Positions 11,751 to 21,128 of a stretch of DNA of 64,000 nucleotides are shown in pieces; position 1 is the first letter of the stretch, and each line of letters opens with the position of its first letter. The position numbers and the translations under genes were made by a program. The DNA is from Gelidibacter pelagius. Lineage in GTDB: Bacteria; Bacteroidota; Bacteroidia; Flavobacteriales; Flavobacteriaceae. Under the pieces are notes generated by a model. It ran no database searches, was not told where the DNA came from, and saw only the letters and a list, made by a program, of their open reading frames with translations. The DNA lies in assembly GCF_017581925.1 (NCBI RefSeq), contig NZ_JAGEVG010000013.1:62001-126000 (forward strand), written 5' to 3'.

Positions 11751-11795
11751 AAAAAGACCTTATCCGAACATTACAATATGTTCTAAGGTCTTTTT
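11751..11795. terminator. Two-way terminator shared by YtxH gene and rr-crp gene
   Basis: The outer arm AAAAAGACCTTA (11751-11762) pairs with TAAGGTCTTTTT (11784-11795), and an inner arm GAACAT (11766-11771) pairs with ATGTTC (11778-11783). The A-run and T-run make it work in both directions. The right arm is inside the coding end of the minus-strand regulator gene, whose stop codon is at 11760-11762. Confidence 0.8.
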
Positions 11796-12830
11796 GTCTT
11801 CTATAATTATTTCTCTTCTAACACCAAAGGTTATCAGTCCTTCCTCACTAAATTGAGTGAGCATGCGTATGGCCGTTTCAGTTGCCGTGCCAATAAGACC
11901 TGCAAGATCTTCTCTTGCTATACTGATGCCCTCAACTTCATCATTGATTAGAATGCGTTGATCATGTATGTCAAGTAGTGCTTTTGCCGCACGCTGCCTT
12001 ACGGTGGCATAAGCGACGTTGACCATGAGTTCTTGAACATCAACCAAATTATTGGAAAGTAAGCTCATGAATTTATTGGCAACAACGTTGTTTTCTTTTA
12101 TGAGTGACGTAAAGTCCAATTTAGGAATTCCATAAAGCACAGCATCTTCCAATACGGTAGCCGATTCGATATAGGTGCCATTGTCAGAGAGTAGGGATAA
12201 TTGTCCTATAAAGTGGCCAGGGCCGCACAAGCCTGTTACAAATTCCTTGCCTTTTTCAGTGGTCTTAAAGGTCTTGACAACACCACTTTCTATGAAGTAT
12301 AATGTGTTTGCCGAATCACCCTCCATAAAAATCAGGTCTTTCGTATTGTACGTTGTCGGATTATAATCCCTGGATAAGTGATCTAATTCCAAATAGGTGG
12401 AAGCTGCTTCGATAAATTGGGAAACCCCATCGATAGATCTTGAAAATTCTCTTCTTAAGAAATCGTGTCGTTTTAATCGGCTTTGAATGGCTTCCAATAA
12501 TTCCTTTTCAGTAAAGGGCTTGGTCAAGTAATCATCTGCCCCCAGATTCATACCTTTGCGCATGTCAATTTTCTCGGTTTTGGCCGTCAGGAAAATAAAA
12601 GGAATGCTCGATGTTCGGGTATTTTTGTTCAATTCCTCCAATACACCGTAGCCGTCCAATTCCGGCATCATAATATCGCATACAATCACATCTGGCAAGA
12701 GTTGTTTTGCACGTTCAACACCAATTTTCCCGTTTTCGGCTGAGGTGACTTCATAACCTTCCAGTTCTAAAATATCGGCGGTATTTTCACGGACATCGTG
12801 ATTGTCTTCTATAATTAATATTTTTATCAT
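11760..12830 (-). CDS. Response regulator fused to a Crp/Fnr-type transcription factor
   Basis: A 356-residue regulator in three parts: receiver domain (1-120; acidic pair Glu8/Asp9, phospho-acceptor Asp52 in VCDIMMPELDG, Lys104 in LTKPF), cyclic-nucleotide-binding-like barrel (about 145-265, FMEGDSANTLYFIESGVVK) and a Crp-type winged helix (about 285-350, SIAREDLAGLIGTATETAIR as recognition region). It lacks the FNR cysteine cluster. It overlaps the kinase gene by 4 bp (ATGA), so the two surely form one system. Joining phospho-signalling to a Crp-type reader is known in flavobacteria but its signal is not. Palindromes near neighbouring stress genes are candidate targets. Confidence 0.92.
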   Translation of the reverse strand: MIKILIIEDNHDVRENTADILELEGYEVTSAENGKIGVERAKQLLPDVIVCDIMMPELDGYGVLEELNKNTRTSSIPFIFLTAKTEKIDMRKGMNLGADDYLTKPFTEKELLEAIQSRLKRHDFLRREFSRSIDGVSQFIEAASTYLELDHLSRDYNPTTYNTKDLIFMEGDSANTLYFIESGVVKTFKTTEKGKEFVTGLCGPGHFIGQLSLLSDNGTYIESATVLEDAVLYGIPKLDFTSLIKENNVVANKFMSLLSNNLVDVQELMVNVAYATVRQRAAKALLDIHDQRILINDEVEGISIAREDLAGLIGTATETAIRMLTQFSEEGLITFGVRREIIIEDKKTLEHIVMFG

Positions 12831-15800
12831 TTTTCTATCTGTATTGGGAACTCAACCGAAAAGGTTGTGCCCTTATTTAGTTCGCTTTTAAATGTAATGG
12901 TACCACCCATCAATTCTGTGTAGTGTTTTGCAATATTTAAGCCCAGTCCGGTGCCTTCAATATTGCCCGCATTCTTTGCCCTAAAAAAACGCCCGAACAA
13001 GTATTTTTGTTCATCCAATGGAATGCCAATGCCTTGATCGGAAATTTCTAGCACTACGCCTTTGTGTTTTTCTAAGATGTTAAAATTTATGTTGGAATCC
13101 TCGGATGAATATTTTGACGCATTCGATAATAGGTTGTTAAGAATGTGACTTAGTAATTTCACATCAAGATTTATAAACAGTTCGTCATTGGTGCTCATGA
13201 CACTAATGGTCTGGTCTTTCTTTAAACTGATATTGGTCTCTTCGACCATTTTATTTGAATAGGAAATCAAATCAAAACGTTCATTTATGGGCATAACCTT
13301 GCCTTCATCCATTTTGCTCAGTGAGAGAAAGTCGTTGAGGATGACCGTCAGGTTGTTGACATTCCTTTCTATCCGCGCCAGATACCTTTCTCTTTTCTCA
13401 GCCATACCATCCCCGTTTTGTTTGCCTATTAAAATTGCAGAAGTGAGTATAGCGCTCAATGGCGTTCTAAATTCGTGGGAGGCCAGAGACACAAAACGCG
13501 ATTTCAGATCATTTAATTCCCGTTCTGATTTTAAGGCGTTTTGAATTGTAAACTCAATTTCTTTTTGTTTGGAAATATCATTGTAAACGTGTAGGGCACT
13601 ATTTATCTTGTTGTTTTTGTCAGTCAATGGTGCTGTGTTTACCGCAAAGTATCGGTCTTTATAGTTGACTTCAAACGAAAGGTATTCGCCAGAAAGCGTT
13701 TTTTTAATACTTTCTTTGATTCGTTCTTTTCTTTCGTCGGAAAAAACTGAAATATCGTCAATGGACATGCCTTCTTGATAAAACTTATTTAATTCTAATT
13801 GATCTAAAGCGTCGCCTTCAGCAAACAGGATTTCTGAATGTTCATTCATAACGGCTACAAAACCATTAGGGAAATTTTTTGCAATTTCCGAAGCTATATT
13901 TTTACTTGTAATGGCTTCACCTTGTGCCAAATCTGCGATGCGTATTTGATCTTCAAGACTTATATTGGATTCTACCAGTTTTTGCACAGTTTCCATGACT
14001 TCTTGAGTGCGCTCCTGAACTTTTTGTTCCAGGTCGTGAGCGTGTTTTTCAAGCTGAATCCTGTTTTTATCAATGGTATCGGTATTCTTTCGATTTTCTA
14101 AAGCGATACTTGCGAGATGGGTCATGTCCAAAAGAATCTTTTTTTCTTCTTCTAAGGGCGATTTATTTGTGTTGCTATAAATGGAGATTGTACCCAACAC
14201 TTGATTGGTGGATGACAATACAGGAAATGACCAGCAGGCCTTTAGCCCGTTTTTGGAGGCTATTTCTTTATAATCTTTCCAAAGTCCATTCGTCTGGATA
14301 TTGGAGACAATAGTTTCTTTTTTTGAAAACGCGGCGGTCCCGCAAGAACCAGTTCTTGGTCCGATCTTAAGACCGTCAATATGGTTGCAAAAAGATTTTG
14401 GTAAATTTGGCGCCACCAATTTATGGAGTGTTTTGTCCTCCGAATCCAGCAAAAAAATGGAAGCTATACAGCCTTTAAAATGGGTCTCAAGGATTTTCAC
14501 AATCTCATTGCCAATGGTTTTTATGGAGTGGTCCTGAACTATTAACTCCAATACTTTCCTGATCTTATCTTTAAGATATTCTGCCTTTACCTTGTTGGTA
14601 ACGTCGTTTTGCACACTTATAAAGTGCGTGAGTTTATGTTCTTCATTATGCACAGGGGTTATGCTAATGTCGTTCCAGAACATAGTGCCATCTTTTCTGT
14701 AATTGCGTACAGTGACTTTGCAAGCTTCTCCATTGGCAATTGCATTTTGCATGATATCGAATTCCTTTTGGTCTCGGTCATCGACTTGTAAAAATCGACT
14801 TTTTTGTCCCAATATTTCTTCTCGGGAATAGCCTGTCATTTTTTCAAAAGCAGAATTGCAATAAATAATTGGGTTGTTTGGTTGTTGTGCATCTGCAATC
14901 AGGATACTATTTCCTGCAGAGGCCAGGGCATTTTTCTGTATGGTAAGTAATGCATCGTTTCTCCATTTCTCGGTGACGTCCCTAACAATGGTCAAAAGCC
15001 TATCGTCGCTCATAAGCACCACGCGAGCCTCAAAATGTTCCATCACTTTCTTATCTTGAGTGCTGATTTCTGTAATCTGCATTTTTCCGGAGGCGATGGC
15101 TTTTTTTTGTGAAGATTTTATTTTTTGGTACACATTGGGCGGCAGTACTTGTTCCATATTCAAGCCAATGAACTTATCTGGTTGTATGGATAGTTTTTCA
15201 GGACTGTTAGCATACCAATCAAGATACACCCCTTGACGGTCTTGGATGAACATGACATCTGGATTGGCTTTCAATAAGGCTTTTATTTTTGATTCGCTCC
15301 TTCGTAATTCCAATTCAGTTTCTTTTTGCAAGGTGATATCGGTAATGAAGCCTTCCAATATTACCCCGTCATTTTTCTCATCATCAATGGCCGTACCCTT
15401 TTCCCATACATATTTAATTGTTCCATCTAAATGTTTAATGCGATATTCAACACTGTAGGGTCTTCCTTGACTCACGGCGTTTTGAATGTCTTCCCATACC
15501 TTATCGCGGTCTTCAACCAAAATGAGATTTCCGTAGGCTATTTTTTGACTCATAAAATCTTCAAAAGAATAGCCGGTAACTTCTAAACACCCTTCACTGA
15601 TATAATCCATTTCGTAAGCCTTGGTGTTCTTACAGCGGAACACAATACCTTTCAGATTGTTTATCAGGGCATCGAACTTTCGATTACTTTCAATGAGTTC
15701 GGCATTCGTTTTTTTTATGGTTCTTAAATCATTTTTTTCTTGTGCAGCATTCTCAAAAAAAACGATCGTGACCTTTTTATCGTCAATTGTTGATGGGGTT

Positions 15801-16096
15801 GCGACTAAGTTTAAATGAAGCTTGCTCCCATCATTTTTGATCCCAAAAACAGCTTTTTCTATTTTAAGAGCTGAGTTCTGATTTTTAATGTGATTTTTAT
15901 ATCGGAGCTTCAGTTTTTCAGGGATGATCATCTCAATGTTTTTATCGATCAATTCTCCCGGACCATAACCAAAAAGCGCTTCGCATGCACGATTTGATGT
16001 TAAGATATAGCCAGCTTCATTCACAGCTATAATCCCTTCAGCAGATGCTTCAAAAATACTCTGTAACAAATCATTATTATGGACTTTGTTTTTCAT
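12827..16096 (-). CDS. Multi-PAS/GAF histidine kinase with a Cys-less LOV-like domain
   Basis: A 1089-residue sensor kinase without membrane segments. Order: PAS1 (about 8-120), PAS2 (140-262), PAS3 (268-380), LOV-like PAS4 (385-510), GAF (520-665), coiled coil (665-715), PAS5 (725-845), HisKA (860-930, phospho-acceptor His874 in SLASHEFRTPL) and HATPase (975-1086; NLLSNASKYS, DQGIGIP, GTGLGLNIAK). PAS4 has the LOV hallmark GQKSRFLQ, NYRKDG, FWN and a final Gln (SVQNDVT), but Ser433 stands where LOV domains have the adduct-forming Cys. The partner is the overlapping RR-Crp gene. The input is unknown; flavin redox or blue light through the LOV-like domain, and small ligands through other PAS/GAF domains, are possible. 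Confidence 0.93.
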   Translation of the reverse strand: MKNKVHNNDLLQSIFEASAEGIIAVNEAGYILTSNRACEALFGYGPGELIDKNIEMIIPEKLKLRYKNHIKNQNSALKIEKAVFGIKNDGSKLHLNLVATPSTIDDKKVTIVFFENAAQEKNDLRTIKKTNAELIESNRKFDALINNLKGIVFRCKNTKAYEMDYISEGCLEVTGYSFEDFMSQKIAYGNLILVEDRDKVWEDIQNAVSQGRPYSVEYRIKHLDGTIKYVWEKGTAIDDEKNDGVILEGFITDITLQKETELELRRSESKIKALLKANPDVMFIQDRQGVYLDWYANSPEKLSIQPDKFIGLNMEQVLPPNVYQKIKSSQKKAIASGKMQITEISTQDKKVMEHFEARVVLMSDDRLLTIVRDVTEKWRNDALLTIQKNALASAGNSILIADAQQPNNPIIYCNSAFEKMTGYSREEILGQKSRFLQVDDRDQKEFDIMQNAIANGEACKVTVRNYRKDGTMFWNDISITPVHNEEHKLTHFISVQNDVTNKVKAEYLKDKIRKVLELIVQDHSIKTIGNEIVKILETHFKGCIASIFLLDSEDKTLHKLVAPNLPKSFCNHIDGLKIGPRTGSCGTAAFSKKETIVSNIQTNGLWKDYKEIASKNGLKACWSFPVLSSTNQVLGTISIYSNTNKSPLEEEKKILLDMTHLASIALENRKNTDTIDKNRIQLEKHAHDLEQKVQERTQEVMETVQKLVESNISLEDQIRIADLAQGEAITSKNIASEIAKNFPNGFVAVMNEHSEILFAEGDALDQLELNKFYQEGMSIDDISVFSDERKERIKESIKKTLSGEYLSFEVNYKDRYFAVNTAPLTDKNNKINSALHVYNDISKQKEIEFTIQNALKSERELNDLKSRFVSLASHEFRTPLSAILTSAILIGKQNGDGMAEKRERYLARIERNVNNLTVILNDFLSLSKMDEGKVMPINERFDLISYSNKMVEETNISLKKDQTISVMSTNDELFINLDVKLLSHILNNLLSNASKYSSEDSNINFNILEKHKGVVLEISDQGIGIPLDEQKYLFGRFFRAKNAGNIEGTGLGLNIAKHYTELMGGTITFKSELNKGTTFSVEFPIQIEK

Positions 16097-16846: not shown

Positions 16847-17395
16847 ATGGAAACAGAAACTAAAAAACTCAGCAAGCTCGAGAAATACGATTCCCGAGGT
16901 GTACAAACGCTCTTTAGAACCGTCTCTAAAAATCACTACAATCTTTTAAAAATGGTGGATAATAAAGCACGGATAATTTTGACTGTAAACTCAATCATCA
17001 CTTCGCTTTTGTTTGGTATTCATTTTATAGATAAAGGCAGTAAATCAATAACTATAAATGTAGGTACCAAGGTTTTAGTAATCAGTAGTATGTTGTCTAT
17101 GGTTTTTGCCTTGTTTAGTATGCTTCCTCATCGTTATTTAGGGAAAAAATTTGAAAAAAGTGGGTATAAGGGAACTTTATATGCCGATAATTTTTCTAAA
17201 CAAACATTAAGTGAATTTAAACAAGAATTTGATCGCATAATGGATAGTGGTCAAACTATTTACAATGAGCTGATCAGCGATTTATATTTTTTAGGCTTGG
17301 TGATTTCTAAAAAACAACGGCTTTTGCTTTATTCTGTGTTTGTATTTCTTATAGGTCTTATTATTACCATTATTTATACCCTTTCTACCCTTTAA
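16847..17395 (+). CDS. PycTM/DUF5706-like membrane protein
   Basis: A 182-residue membrane protein. The N-terminal part has the motif RTVSKNHYNLLKMVDNKARI followed by LTVNSIITSLLFG, the signature of the DUF5706 / Pycsar-effector transmembrane (PycTM) group. Hydrophobic segments are at about 45-65, 74-95 and 158-180; a soluble helical loop (100-150) lies between. In Pycsar defence, PycTM proteins are switched on by cyclic UMP or CMP and damage the membrane; stand-alone flavobacterial members are often not tied to defence. No cyclase gene is near, so a defence role is only a possibility. The next gene (68 bp on) is the phosphoesterase/Omp85 fusion. Confidence 0.65.
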   Translation: METETKKLSKLEKYDSRGVQTLFRTVSKNHYNLLKMVDNKARIILTVNSIITSLLFGIHFIDKGSKSITINVGTKVLVISSMLSMVFALFSMLPHRYLGKKFEKSGYKGTLYADNFSKQTLSEFKQEFDRIMDSGQTIYNELISDLYFLGLVISKKQRLLLYSVFVFLIGLIITIIYTLSTL

Positions 17396-17462: not shown

Positions 17463-20400
17463 ATGACATCTCACAAATTAAGTATATGGTTACTAACACT
17501 CACAACACTCCTGTTTTTTAATTGTGCTACGTTTAAAACTTCCATAAAGGAAACGGAAACTATAAATCCAAAGGACACAGAGCCTGCATTAAAAGTCTAT
17601 ATGATAGGTGGCGTTGGCCTACCCGAAAATGGAAAAGCACCCGCTGCACTACAAGCTTTAGAAAACGAAATTAAGAACTCAAATAAAAGAGATCTGCTGC
17701 TTTTTTTAGGTGACAACGTGTATCCAAAAGGAATTCCAAACAGCGATGGTCCAGAAAACCAAGATGCTGAATTGGCCTTGTCATTTCAGATTGATGTGGC
17801 AAAAAAATTTAAGGGTCGGGTTATATTTATTCCAGGAGATAAGGATTGGAACAGTGGGGTTTCAGGTCTGAAAAACCAGGAGAAATTAGTTGAAGGCGCA
17901 TTGGGCAAAAACACGTTTTTACCTGAAAACGGCTGCCCTATTAAAAAAGTAAAAATCAATGATGACACCATTTTACTGGTTATAGATTCGCAATGGTATA
18001 TTACTAATTGGGATCGACACCCATCCATAAACGATAAATGTGAAATAAAAACGCGCACAGATTTTTTGGACGATTTTAGAAGTGAAATAAAAAAAGCAAG
18101 GGGGCAAACAGTTTTGGTTGCTATCCACCATCCGATGTTTAGTAGTGGACCTCATGGCGGTCAACACAGTTTTATGAGCCAAATGAAACCCTTGCCTATA
18201 ATTGGATCGTTTAAGAACTTAATAAGAAACACCAGTGGCATTTCAAGTAGGGATCTGTCCAATGTGTATTACAATGAATTAAAACGAAATTTAGTTGCTG
18301 CTTCCCAGCAGAATAATTCAGTTATTTTTATCTCCGGGCATGAACAAAGTTTACAATATTTGGTTAAGGATAATATTCCTCAAATAATAAGTGGTTCTGG
18401 CTCTAAATCAACGCCGACGAGATTGATAGAAGGGGGTGAGTTTGCATATCCTGACCACGGATTTGCCATGTTGACTATTTATAAAGATGGCGCTTCCGAA
18501 GTGAAATTTATTTCTGCAGAAAATCAGGAACTTGTCTATCAAACCCAAGTATTTGAATCTGATGAGAAGGTCTCAGAAAAGTATCCTAAAATAAGTCAAG
18601 ATTCAATTTCGGCAGCAATCTACTCAGAAGAAGAAACTACAAAAAGTAATTTTTATAAGTTTTTATGGGGAGAGCGTTATAGAAAATATTTTAGTACTCC
18701 CGTAAAAGCCAAGGTTGTTTATTTGGATACGCTAATGGGTGGTTTGACCCCTTTCCGAAAAGGTGGTGGAACACAGTCCAAAACGCTGCATTTAAAAACT
18801 GAGGATGGCACCAGATATGTGATGAGAGCCGCAAGAAAAAATGCAACTCAGTACATTCAGGCTTTTGCATTTCAAGATCAATATGTTGAAGGGTATTTTG
18901 AAAATACAGCTTCAGAAGCACTTATTGCAGACGTGTTTACGGGATCTTATCCTTATGCTCCTTTTATCGTGGCGTCTTTGTCTAAATCTTTAAGTATTCC
19001 ACATTTGAATCCCTATTTATACTATATACCCAAACAAGAAGCCTTAGGTAATTACAATCAAGAATATGGCGACGAATTATACATTTTGGAAGAACACGCT
19101 TCAAAAGGTCATCCGCATTTGGCTTCAGGAAATTTCACAGGAAACATTATCAGTACCACCGATTTCTTATTGGAAATCCATTCTGACGAATCAAAAGTTG
19201 TTGATGAAAAATCCTATATAAAAGCACGTTTGTTCGATATGCTGATTGGCGATTGGGATCGGCATCAGGATCAATGGCGTTGGTTGGAGTTTAAAGAGGA
19301 TGACAAAATCATCTATAAGCCATTACCAAGAGATAGGGACCAAGCCTTTTCCAAAATGTCCGATGGCATTATGTTGGGAGCTTCAATCCATTTGATTCCT
19401 GTTGCTAAATTATTGCGAAAATACTCGTCCGATTTAAAAGATGTAAAAGGATTTAATATCGAACCCTTTCCTTTAGATATGGCCCTTATTACCCGATCCA
19501 ATAAGGAGGTTTGGGATCAGCAGGTGGCCGAATTGCAACGCGATCTGACGGATGAGGTTATTGATAAAGCATTTAATACAGTGCCGAAAGAAGTGCAAGG
19601 CGAAACCATTGAATCCATTAAACAGCTCTTAAAAGGCAGAAAAAACAATTTACAGTCCATTTCAGATGCTTATTATAAGCTGATAAATGAATATGCGGTA
19701 CTTGTGGCCACCAATAAAGACGATTATATCAAAATAAATGGGTTGGAAAACGGAAATGTCGAAGTTTCGATGTTTCGTAAAAAAGGAGATTCAATTACAG
19801 ATGAATTTCATAATAGAACCTATAGTCCAGACCTAACAAAAGAAATATGGATTTACGGATTGGCCGATGATGACACCTTTAAGATCACTGGTGAAGTCAA
19901 AAACATAAAAATCCGAATTACAGGAGGTCAAAACAACGACGAATATATCGTCGAAAACGGAAAAAACATAAAAATTTACGATTATAAAACCCGACCAAAT
20001 ACATTAGAAGAAATCGATAATGCCTCCGTTAAATTACGTGACAATTATATTGCCAATGTTTACGATTATACGAAGCTTAGAAATAATACCAATCAGATTA
20101 TTCCTTCCATAGGTTTGAATCCGGACGACGGAGTAAAAGTGGGGATTAACAATACCTATACCGTATACGGATTTGAAAGAAATCCGTTTACCAGCCAACA
20201 TAAGATCAACGCGGCTTATTATTTTGCCACCAAAGGATATGAGATTAAGTACGAGGGCGAGTTTGCGAATATTATAGGTGATTTGAATTTTAAAATCGAT
20301 GCCAATTTTCAAAGCCCTAATTATACCTTAAACTTTTTTGGTTTTGGTAATGAAACTATAAACCTAGACGACAATTTAGGTCGTGATTATAACCGGGTGA

Positions 20401-21128
20401 GAGTTCGTGAATTCCAAATTGCCCCGTCATTGGTTTACAGGGCGCACGGCGGTGGTCAATTCAGTTTTGGAGTAGGGTATGAGTCGGTTGAGGTTGAAAA
20501 TACGGATAACAGATATGTCGCAGACAGTTTTCAATTGCCCAACTATATTTTTGATGAGAATCAATTCGGGACTATCAATGCAAAATTCGAATTTGAAAAT
20601 TATGATAACAAGGCCTATCCTACTTTAGGTTTTCAATCGAGCATTGAGTTGGGTTATAAAATGAATTTTGACCAAAACAATGTTGGCTATACCTACTTGA
20701 TTCCAGAGTTGAGTATTACCCATAAATTAGTGTCCTCTGGTAAACTTGTCTTAGCCAGTAGGATAAAAAGTCACATTAATTTTGGAGATCATTTCGAGTT
20801 TTATCAAGCCGCCTCCATTGGAGGTATTGATGGACCGAGAGGTTTTAGAAATCAGCGTTTTACCGGGAATCAATCGTTTTTTCAAAATACAGACATCCGT
20901 TATAGTTTTGGTAAATTCCGAACCAAATTAATTCCCATCCGACTGGGTCTTTTTGCTGGTTTCGATTATGGAAGGGTCTGGTTGGATGGTGAAGATTCTA
21001 AAAAATGGAATAATTCTTATGGCGGCGGATTTTTTATTTCCGGGGTCGATATTATTTCGGCAAATCTTGGAGTATTTAATTCAATTGACGGCATACGTGC
21101 CGCTTTTTCTTTGGGCTTTAATTTATAA
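17463..21128 (+). CDS. Metallophosphoesterase / kinase-like / Omp85-type barrel fusion protein
   Basis: A 1221-residue outer-membrane protein in three parts. A lipoprotein-type signal (LTTLLFFNC, Cys21) leads to a calcineurin-like phosphoesterase (about 45-350) with GDN (83-85), GDKDW (125-129), AIHHP (220-224) and GHE (292-294) metal motifs. The middle (about 415-700) has DMLIGDWDRHQDQWRW (592-607) and PRDRDQAF (622-629), the spacing and look of the catalytic and metal loops of HipA/Fam20C/CotH-type kinases. The C-terminal ~400 residues (GLNPDDGVKVGINNTY onward; PRGFRNQRFTG near 1120) are a D15/BamA-like barrel ending in an aromatic strand (AAFSLGFNL). A phosphatase and a kinase-like fold on one cell-surface barrel is unusual. 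The SRAP gene follows after 13 bp. Confidence 0.8.
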   Translation: MTSHKLSIWLLTLTTLLFFNCATFKTSIKETETINPKDTEPALKVYMIGGVGLPENGKAPAALQALENEIKNSNKRDLLLFLGDNVYPKGIPNSDGPENQDAELALSFQIDVAKKFKGRVIFIPGDKDWNSGVSGLKNQEKLVEGALGKNTFLPENGCPIKKVKINDDTILLVIDSQWYITNWDRHPSINDKCEIKTRTDFLDDFRSEIKKARGQTVLVAIHHPMFSSGPHGGQHSFMSQMKPLPIIGSFKNLIRNTSGISSRDLSNVYYNELKRNLVAASQQNNSVIFISGHEQSLQYLVKDNIPQIISGSGSKSTPTRLIEGGEFAYPDHGFAMLTIYKDGASEVKFISAENQELVYQTQVFESDEKVSEKYPKISQDSISAAIYSEEETTKSNFYKFLWGERYRKYFSTPVKAKVVYLDTLMGGLTPFRKGGGTQSKTLHLKTEDGTRYVMRAARKNATQYIQAFAFQDQYVEGYFENTASEALIADVFTGSYPYAPFIVASLSKSLSIPHLNPYLYYIPKQEALGNYNQEYGDELYILEEHASKGHPHLASGNFTGNIISTTDFLLEIHSDESKVVDEKSYIKARLFDMLIGDWDRHQDQWRWLEFKEDDKIIYKPLPRDRDQAFSKMSDGIMLGASIHLIPVAKLLRKYSSDLKDVKGFNIEPFPLDMALITRSNKEVWDQQVAELQRDLTDEVIDKAFNTVPKEVQGETIESIKQLLKGRKNNLQSISDAYYKLINEYAVLVATNKDDYIKINGLENGNVEVSMFRKKGDSITDEFHNRTYSPDLTKEIWIYGLADDDTFKITGEVKNIKIRITGGQNNDEYIVENGKNIKIYDYKTRPNTLEEIDNASVKLRDNYIANVYDYTKLRNNTNQIIPSIGLNPDDGVKVGINNTYTVYGFERNPFTSQHKINAAYYFATKGYEIKYEGEFANIIGDLNFKIDANFQSPNYTLNFFGFGNETINLDDNLGRDYNRVRVREFQIAPSLVYRAHGGGQFSFGVGYESVEVENTDNRYVADSFQLPNYIFDENQFGTINAKFEFENYDNKAYPTLGFQSSIELGYKMNFDQNNVGYTYLIPELSITHKLVSSGKLVLASRIKSHINFGDHFEFYQAASIGGIDGPRGFRNQRFTGNQSFFQNTDIRYSFGKFRTKLIPIRLGLFAGFDYGRVWLDGEDSKKWNNSYGGGFFISGVDIISANLGVFNSIDGIRAAFSLGFNL

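Follow-up and report, generated by a model that had tools for sequence, protein, structure and literature searches.

The window analysed here is a 64,000-nucleotide stretch of the Gelidibacter pelagius genome (contig NZ_JAGEVG010000013.1, positions 62,001 to 126,000, forward strand). In it, a single open frame at 17463-21128 on the + strand encodes a protein of 1221 residues, and the gene is real. Coordinates below are window positions, and residue numbers are those of the 1221-residue protein. A first-pass annotation had described a cell-surface protein made of a metallophosphoesterase (MPE) domain, a kinase-like domain (KLD) and an outer-membrane barrel. Our preferred reading, held with moderate confidence, is an exported, outer-membrane-anchored phosphotransferase of the kinase clan that is tied to (poly)phosphate biology. 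Sequence evidence supports the kinase-clan C-lobe, the conserved site, the export signals and the genetic linkage. The features of the locus are as follows.

16847..17395, + strand: gene for a PycTM-domain membrane protein (PF18967, E 7.4e-15), 67 bases upstream of the 1221-residue gene
17463..17525, + strand: signal peptide with a lipobox-like LFFNC and a putatively lipidated Cys21, read from the sequence
17535..18611, + strand: calcineurin-like MPE domain, residues 25-383, degenerate in the window copy (PF00149 over cut-off)
17610..17612, + strand: Gly50 in place of the motif-I Asp (Asp in 145 of 152 three-part proteins)
17838..17843, + strand: Asp126-Lys127 in place of the Asn-His of GNHD (Asn in 148 and His in 147 of 152)
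18345..18347, + strand: Gln295 in place of the second His of GHxH (His in 146 of 152)
18612..19733, + strand: KLD, residues 384-757, in no Pfam or NCBIfam family, with profile links to kinases
18762..18770, + strand: Gly-rich GGG (434-436), a candidate phosphate-binding loop (Gly434 in 40 and Gly435 in 41 of 44)
18825..18839, + strand: R455-xxx-K459, an Arg at the by-eye beta-3 Lys position and a conserved Lys, from conservation
19248..19283, + strand: GDWDRHQDQWRW (596-607), the putative catalytic-loop equivalent by analogy, from alignments to CtkA, the HipA_C-type protein L262 and CotH
19326..19349, + strand: PRDRDQAF (622-629), with a putative metal-binding Asp, DFG-equivalent by analogy; Asp624 aligns with the CtkA Asp and with CotH DxDxxF
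19734..20102, + strand: KLD-to-barrel linker with no Pfam match over cut-off; G821, D826 and D840 are conserved
20103..21125, + strand: Omp85-type outer-membrane barrel, residues 881-1221 (NCBIfam Omp85_fam), its N-boundary set from conservation
20835..20849, + strand: PRGFR (1125-1129), the barrel loop-6 motif (R1126 in 77 and G1127 in 75 of 77 aligned full-length proteins)

PF00149 was the sole Pfam family over cut-off in the window protein (residues 61-236, 29.1 bits against a cut-off of 21.5), and the nearest PDB match to the MPE was a purple acid phosphatase (E 5.4e-6). The domain had been credited with a full set of calcineurin-like metal motifs. That description fails for the window copy, in which D50G, N126D, H127K and H295Q leave the metal and catalytic residues incomplete. 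We scored the MPE site at nine positions across 152 three-part (MPE-KLD-barrel) proteins, and seven of them, one being the window copy, had at least two changes. Part of the loss is common to the window copy and a protein of the same genus, L006, which is 83% identical over the KLD and has G50, Q127, Q223 and Q295. The same genome holds two further full-length paralogues (41% and 38% identity): the MPE site of L002 is intact and that of L003 is decayed. All seven MPE-decayed proteins have K459, D597, D599, D624 and D626 unchanged, and among the remaining three-part proteins one has a scored KLD change, D624H. Because the seven keep all five scored KLD residues, the KLD seems to be under tighter constraint than the MPE. 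The 152 proteins were chosen with a search pattern in which part of DWDR is fixed, so their counts are biased for D597 and D599 and unbiased for D624, D626, K459 and Q604. Judged by these substitutions, the phosphatase of the window copy looks broken. A decayed MPE beside intact scored KLD residues also occurs in Nonlabens and Winogradskyella (L136, L152).

The motifs DWDRHQDQWRW and PRDRDQAF, on which the first-pass annotation had based its kinase call, lie where it placed them (D597, D599, D624, D626). We read conservation from 44 of 162 KLDs that are less than 62% identical, come from fused, barrel-only and stand-alone forms, and are the basis of profile A3; the short fragments L071 and L072 had been dropped before this set was built. 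Sequences in these and the later hit counts are related, not independent. Conservation of the four motif Asp had been named beforehand as a test of the call, and they are kept in 44, 40, 41 and 41 of the 44 copies, respectively. Gln604 (42 of 44), Lys459 (43 of 44) and Arg455 (41 of 44) are nearly as constant; in the three-part proteins Arg455 is present in 151 of 152 and Lys459 in all 152. From textbook kinase roles, by analogy, we take Asp599 to be the catalytic Asp and Gln604 to occupy the D+5 metal-ligand place. The catalytic and metal Asp are conserved in a kinase-like order and spacing. Pairing YVMRAARK of the KLD by eye with YIAKVG of L262 puts Arg455 at the kinase beta-3 Lys position, which justifies the doubt voiced earlier over the ATP-binding Lys. 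The nearest named relative found, L081 from Flavobacterium odoriferum, is 75% identical over the KLD.

Does the KLD belong to the kinase clan? The PADLOC profile PDC-M03A matched the full window protein at residues 582-609, over the DRH motif (E 1.7e-5), and PDC-M03A profiles matched 29 of the 44 KLDs at E<=0.1 (best 2.6e-6). A PDC-M03A search of 148 genomes of the phylum (Bacteroidota) returned three matches, of which L264, a short frame with a stop, was excluded and L262 and L263 were usable open frames. Both exceed the cut-off of Pfam HipA_C (PF07804), and L262, the better of the two, has weak PDB matches to CtkA, a HipA_C protein and FAM20A (E 0.04-0.25). A profile of L262 and L263 spans both KLD motifs. 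At E<=1 it matched 127 of the 162 KLDs, the best at 3.7e-4, and its sole control, the 162 reversed sequences, gave no match. The chain of intermediates runs from KLD to PDC-M03A, from two PDC-M03A members to HipA_C over cut-off, and from those two to KLD again. In register, LLFDAIVGNNDRHFFNW...SPIYDSARGLFW of L262 lines up with RLFDMLIGDWDRHQDQW...PRDRDQAF of the KLD; unlike these HipA_C/PDC-M03A kinases, the KLD is an exported domain with Gln at D+5 and, by eye, Arg for Lys, and it gives no direct HipA_C match.

CotH kinases (PF08757) supplied a second link, since their catalytic region and DxDxxF motif align with the KLD. At E<=0.05, two of three CotH profiles matched 29 of 162 KLDs and the third matched 13; reversed sequences gave no match and shuffled ones 0-2 in each of five sets. 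The profile-profile score of KLD against CotH was 30.4, and none of 20 unrelated families exceeded 23.4. The KLD differs from CotH in staying below the Pfam cut-off (PF08757 appeared for 1 of 44, E 0.013). Profile A1, built from 24 KLDs, found CtkA at E 0.047, with DRH aligned to DRH and Asp624 to Asp. PHROG 8728, a family of unknown function, matched 10 of the 44 KLDs at E<=0.1 (best 0.0021).

Several results weigh against this assignment. No kinase family of Pfam or NCBIfam reached its cut-off with 24 KLDs in one scan or with 44 in others. The PDC-M03A match covers a mere 28-40 residues of the KLD, and the reverse search was weak, a KLD profile finding L262 at E 0.017-0.046 and L263 at E 2.9-9.3. 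Single shuffled sequences scored E 0.0013 and 0.0043 with CotH profiles. The three CotH profiles also matched 1, 4 and 1 of 327 neighbour proteins at E<=0.05, and the best of these (E 1.4e-7, 3.4e-4 and 7.1e-7) each beat the best KLD for that profile; the best-matching neighbour is probably a true CotH gene. One KLD subset scored 23.5 against one CotH profile, under the best unrelated family at 26.6, and profile-profile probabilities were low (CotH 1.1-38%, HipA <=1%). The broader profile A3, from 44 KLDs, misses CtkA even at E<=10, and a profile built from 30 of the phylum's HipA proteins stayed at the level of the controls, so that we rejected direct HipA membership. Profile links cover the C-lobe motifs, the putative N-lobe is paired by eye, and the beta-3 Lys position, as placed by eye, holds Arg.

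Other candidates fell away. Seen with A1 and absent with A3, CtkA is a lead to the closest solved structure, not proof of it. Fam20C (PF06702) had no row among the 25 families listed for the 44 KLDs, and the intermediate L262 matched it weakly (E 0.051). HDAC6 matches were set aside as chance because they track the DWDxH string; EnY2, HrcA, Arylsulfotran_N, CcmI, LanM and similar rows were below cut-off and scattered.

Together, PDC-M03A at DRH, the HipA_C-type L262/L263 profile, the CotH profiles and the near-invariant motifs bear out the kinase-like core at the level of sequence. A hidden Markov model check had been suggested, and its outcome was divided: profile matches to PDC-M03A and CotH were obtained, and no direct Pfam or NCBIfam kinase cut-off was reached. 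We conclude that the KLD very probably carries a kinase-clan C-lobe.

The D15/BamA-like domain proposed at the outset was recovered as Omp85_fam at residues 1031-1192 (E 3.1e-19, 69.8 bits, under the curated cut-off of 200) together with PRGFR; an RGF/Y motif in loop 6 is a hallmark of Omp85 barrels. A ShlB match stayed below its cut-off (E 7.9e-4, 19.4 bits against 22.7), a phmmer search of the barrel half against the PDB gave a single short match (E 0.22), and a Pfam scan of the window protein found no POTRA domain. The lipoprotein-type start that had been called is also present: it reads LLFFNC, and 74 of 77 aligned full-length proteins have Cys in the Cys21 column. A simple rule, generous because the start was chosen to favour hydrophobicity, counted a hydrophobic N-terminus in 146 of 151 three-part frames, 14 of 15 frames with KLD and barrel, and 9 of 10 with KLD alone.

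An Omp85 barrel has its N-terminal side towards the periplasm, a compartment without expected ATP. Since domains N-terminal to such a barrel are expected there, the cell-surface location first proposed is unsupported and unlikely. The enzyme domain of PlpD, a patatin-Omp85 protein, likewise stays there, as shown in the available part of PMC11116518; PlpD resembles the window protein in having an enzyme domain on an Omp85 barrel and differs in that this domain is unrelated to the KLD. By analogy, the enzymatic parts of the window protein are probably periplasmic, not surface-exposed, a placement that makes ATP problematic as a donor.

We turned to neighbouring genes across 296 sampled genomes of the phylum, of which 111 have a KLD (in 140 places), 112 have PycTM and 96 have both (Fisher p 7e-44, phylogeny ignored). 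A PycTM gene lies within 10 kb of a KLD in 76 of those 96 genomes, in 19 families. PycTM is a Pycsar-effector domain, and many of the KLD-linked proteins that have it are about 400 residues long, their front half resembling HD; neighbour genes were labelled "HD", "GAF" or "cyclase" by eye. The polyphosphate kinase gene PPK1 lies within 10 kb of a KLD in at least 16 of 73 genomes, against a crude expectation of 0.75. In 20 regions, mostly picked from genomes with a known nearby PycTM, PPK1 occurred in 9, with the copy in L229 broken into two frames, and SixA in 7. Pfam-named KLD neighbours in L223 and L224 were His_Phos_1 (SixA-like), PAP2, Porin_O_P and CotH. Within the window's family, one genome (G174) has a stand-alone KLD 8 kb from a polyphosphate kinase. 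Against our reading, no polyphosphate kinase was found in 11 regions from the window's order (L246-L256, 10 of the same family), and the two polyphosphate kinases of its own genome, among the matches listed, are on other contigs. Nor does the available part of PMC8115612 support Pho control: its Table 1, on phosphate starvation in F. johnsoniae, has no Omp85-type entry. We regard the neighbours as a lead towards envelope (poly)phosphate handling, with PycTM as a possible inner-membrane partner.

Some arrangements stand apart. A Porin_O_P-CotH-PAP2 trio adjoins KLD-barrel genes in L223 (5589-8552), L224 and L230, and CotH genes with lipoprotein-like starts adjoin KLD genes in the same three regions. 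In G063 and G208 (L259, L261), PycTM sits with SixA and PPK1 and the region has no KLD; because of this, a polyphosphate-linked, non-defence role is suggested for PycTM proteins of this kind. In L228, L233 and L245, all of one family, an MPE-KLD-barrel gene has two neighbours, a repeat-bearing gene that by eye looks like a class-III cyclase and a short PycTM gene, an arrangement resembling the Pycsar cyclase-effector pair.

How might such a protein work? We infer fold, N-lobe, activity, donor, substrate and topology as follows. The Omp85 barrel would anchor the protein in the outer membrane, with the lipidated N-terminus as a second anchor, and the MPE and KLD would hang into the periplasm, following the PlpD precedent. 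The KLD may be a two-lobed phosphotransferase of the HipA/CtkA/CotH/Fam20 type, in which Asp599 would act as the catalytic base, the metal would be held by Gln604 and Asp624 (and perhaps Asp626), and Arg455 and/or Lys459 would contact the phosphate chain. KLD and export signal would form the conserved core, and the MPE, which many homologues lack and which has decayed in the window copy, would be an accessory. Phosphate from polyphosphate or another exported donor could then pass to an envelope lipid, glycan or protein, and intact MPE domains might perform the reverse reaction or clean-up. We propose the (poly)phosphate connection because no ATP is expected in the periplasm and because polyphosphate kinase, SixA-like, PAP2 and phosphate-porin genes lie beside the KLD in several families. 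On the sequence evidence, a catalytically active KLD is reasonably probable; its relation to polyphosphate is tentative, and polyphosphate is one possible phosphate donor. A broader scheme is unlikely as a whole: two of the ten Omp85 subfamilies would carry unrecognised exported kinases in an ATP-free compartment, polyphosphate (from the linked PPK1) or another exported donor would phosphorylate the outer membrane, and PycTM proteins would report the envelope phosphate state.

Four other explanations were weighed; they overlap, and their probabilities need not sum to one. Perhaps the KLD is a pseudokinase-like module that senses a periplasmic nucleotide or phosphorylated ligand and gates the barrel without phosphotransfer? 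The Arg at the by-eye Lys position, the expected absence of ATP from the periplasm and the linkage to a PycTM membrane protein would all suit such a sensor. However, pseudokinases usually lose their catalytic and metal Asp, which are near-invariant in the KLD across the sampled architectures, and we consider this explanation unlikely.

The architectures bear on a second alternative. Of the 140 KLD frames, 83 are at least 1150 residues long, 42 are 740-1150 and 15 are below 600; classes were assigned by these lengths, with domain content profile-checked in the regions examined, where MPE-KLD-barrel, KLD-barrel and KLD-alone forms were all confirmed. In two genomes of one genus (L221, L222), KLD, MPE and barrel are separate, consecutive genes on the same strand, which speaks well for a joint function of the three parts. 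The window's own genome also has a stand-alone KLD of 423 residues with a membrane-anchor-like start (L004:1339-2610). Might a kinase and a phosphatase on one barrel, as the first-pass annotation proposed, reversibly phosphorylate envelope proteins or glycans? Fusion or adjacency of MPE and KLD fits this idea, as do the 145 of 152 three-part proteins with fewer than two MPE-site changes. However, about 57 of the 140 KLD frames are too short for an MPE (judged from length; two genomes have it as an adjacent gene), and the window copy, whose MPE is without four conserved active-site residues, gives a phosphatase/kinase cycle no support. We find a general cycle of this kind quite unlikely. Stand-alone KLD frames of 416-439 residues recur in genomes related to the window's, and three KLD-only genes lie near one another in L225 (G129), as do two in L064 (G222).

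The third alternative has some backing in the literature. In the available part of PMC4104836, Heinz and Lithgow (2014) described an Omp85 "Metallo" subfamily with PF00149 in a non-POTRA architecture, and a "noNterm" subfamily with similar barrels and no N-terminal extension. The window protein shares PF00149 and the Omp85 barrel with "Metallo" and is very likely a member, and KLD-barrel proteins of about 870 residues would fit "noNterm", with the membership lists unchecked in both cases. That text calls PF00149, a calcineurin-like phosphoesterase, a metalloprotease, a label that colours the functional guess for "Metallo", and the word "kinase" is absent from the main text as available. Its proposed default, a role in assembly, and the Omp85-type barrel with its RGF motif both favour an ordinary Omp85 protein that serves assembly or secretion, with chaperone-like domains at the N-terminus in place of POTRA. 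Against this stand the lack of POTRA in the Pfam scan, active-site conservation stricter than a scaffold would require, KLDs that stand alone with no barrel, and the example of PlpD, an Omp85 protein with a periplasmic enzyme domain (PMC11116518, available part). We place this role, too, at low probability.

A chance or convergent DxD metal site in an unrelated hydrolase or transferase is the least probable: direct profile matches are all weak or short and some were not repeated with another profile, but at the motifs the HipA_C-type and CotH profiles share one alignment register, and reversed sequences give no match.

Is the combination of modules on one barrel a new design, as first suggested? 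This holds in part: the MPE-Omp85 fusion has been in print since 2014 (PMC4104836, available part), and the kinase-like middle domain, which was not found in print, appears to be undescribed. The open-access papers searched, with most subscription papers outside their coverage, yielded no description of the KLD, and it goes unmentioned in the available parts of PMC12611786, PMC12045153 and PMC9758233. If correct, our reading names the missing domain of a widespread Bacteroidota protein, extends the kinase clan by an exported branch and raises the question of the phosphate donor outside the cytoplasm. Linkage to PycTM and polyphosphate kinase would offer an entry point to an envelope-phosphate system, none of which was found in the searched literature.

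Elsewhere in the window, at 11760-16096 on the - strand, a large PAS/GAF histidine kinase gene adjoins one for a response regulator fused to cNMP-binding and Crp-type helix-turn-helix domains.

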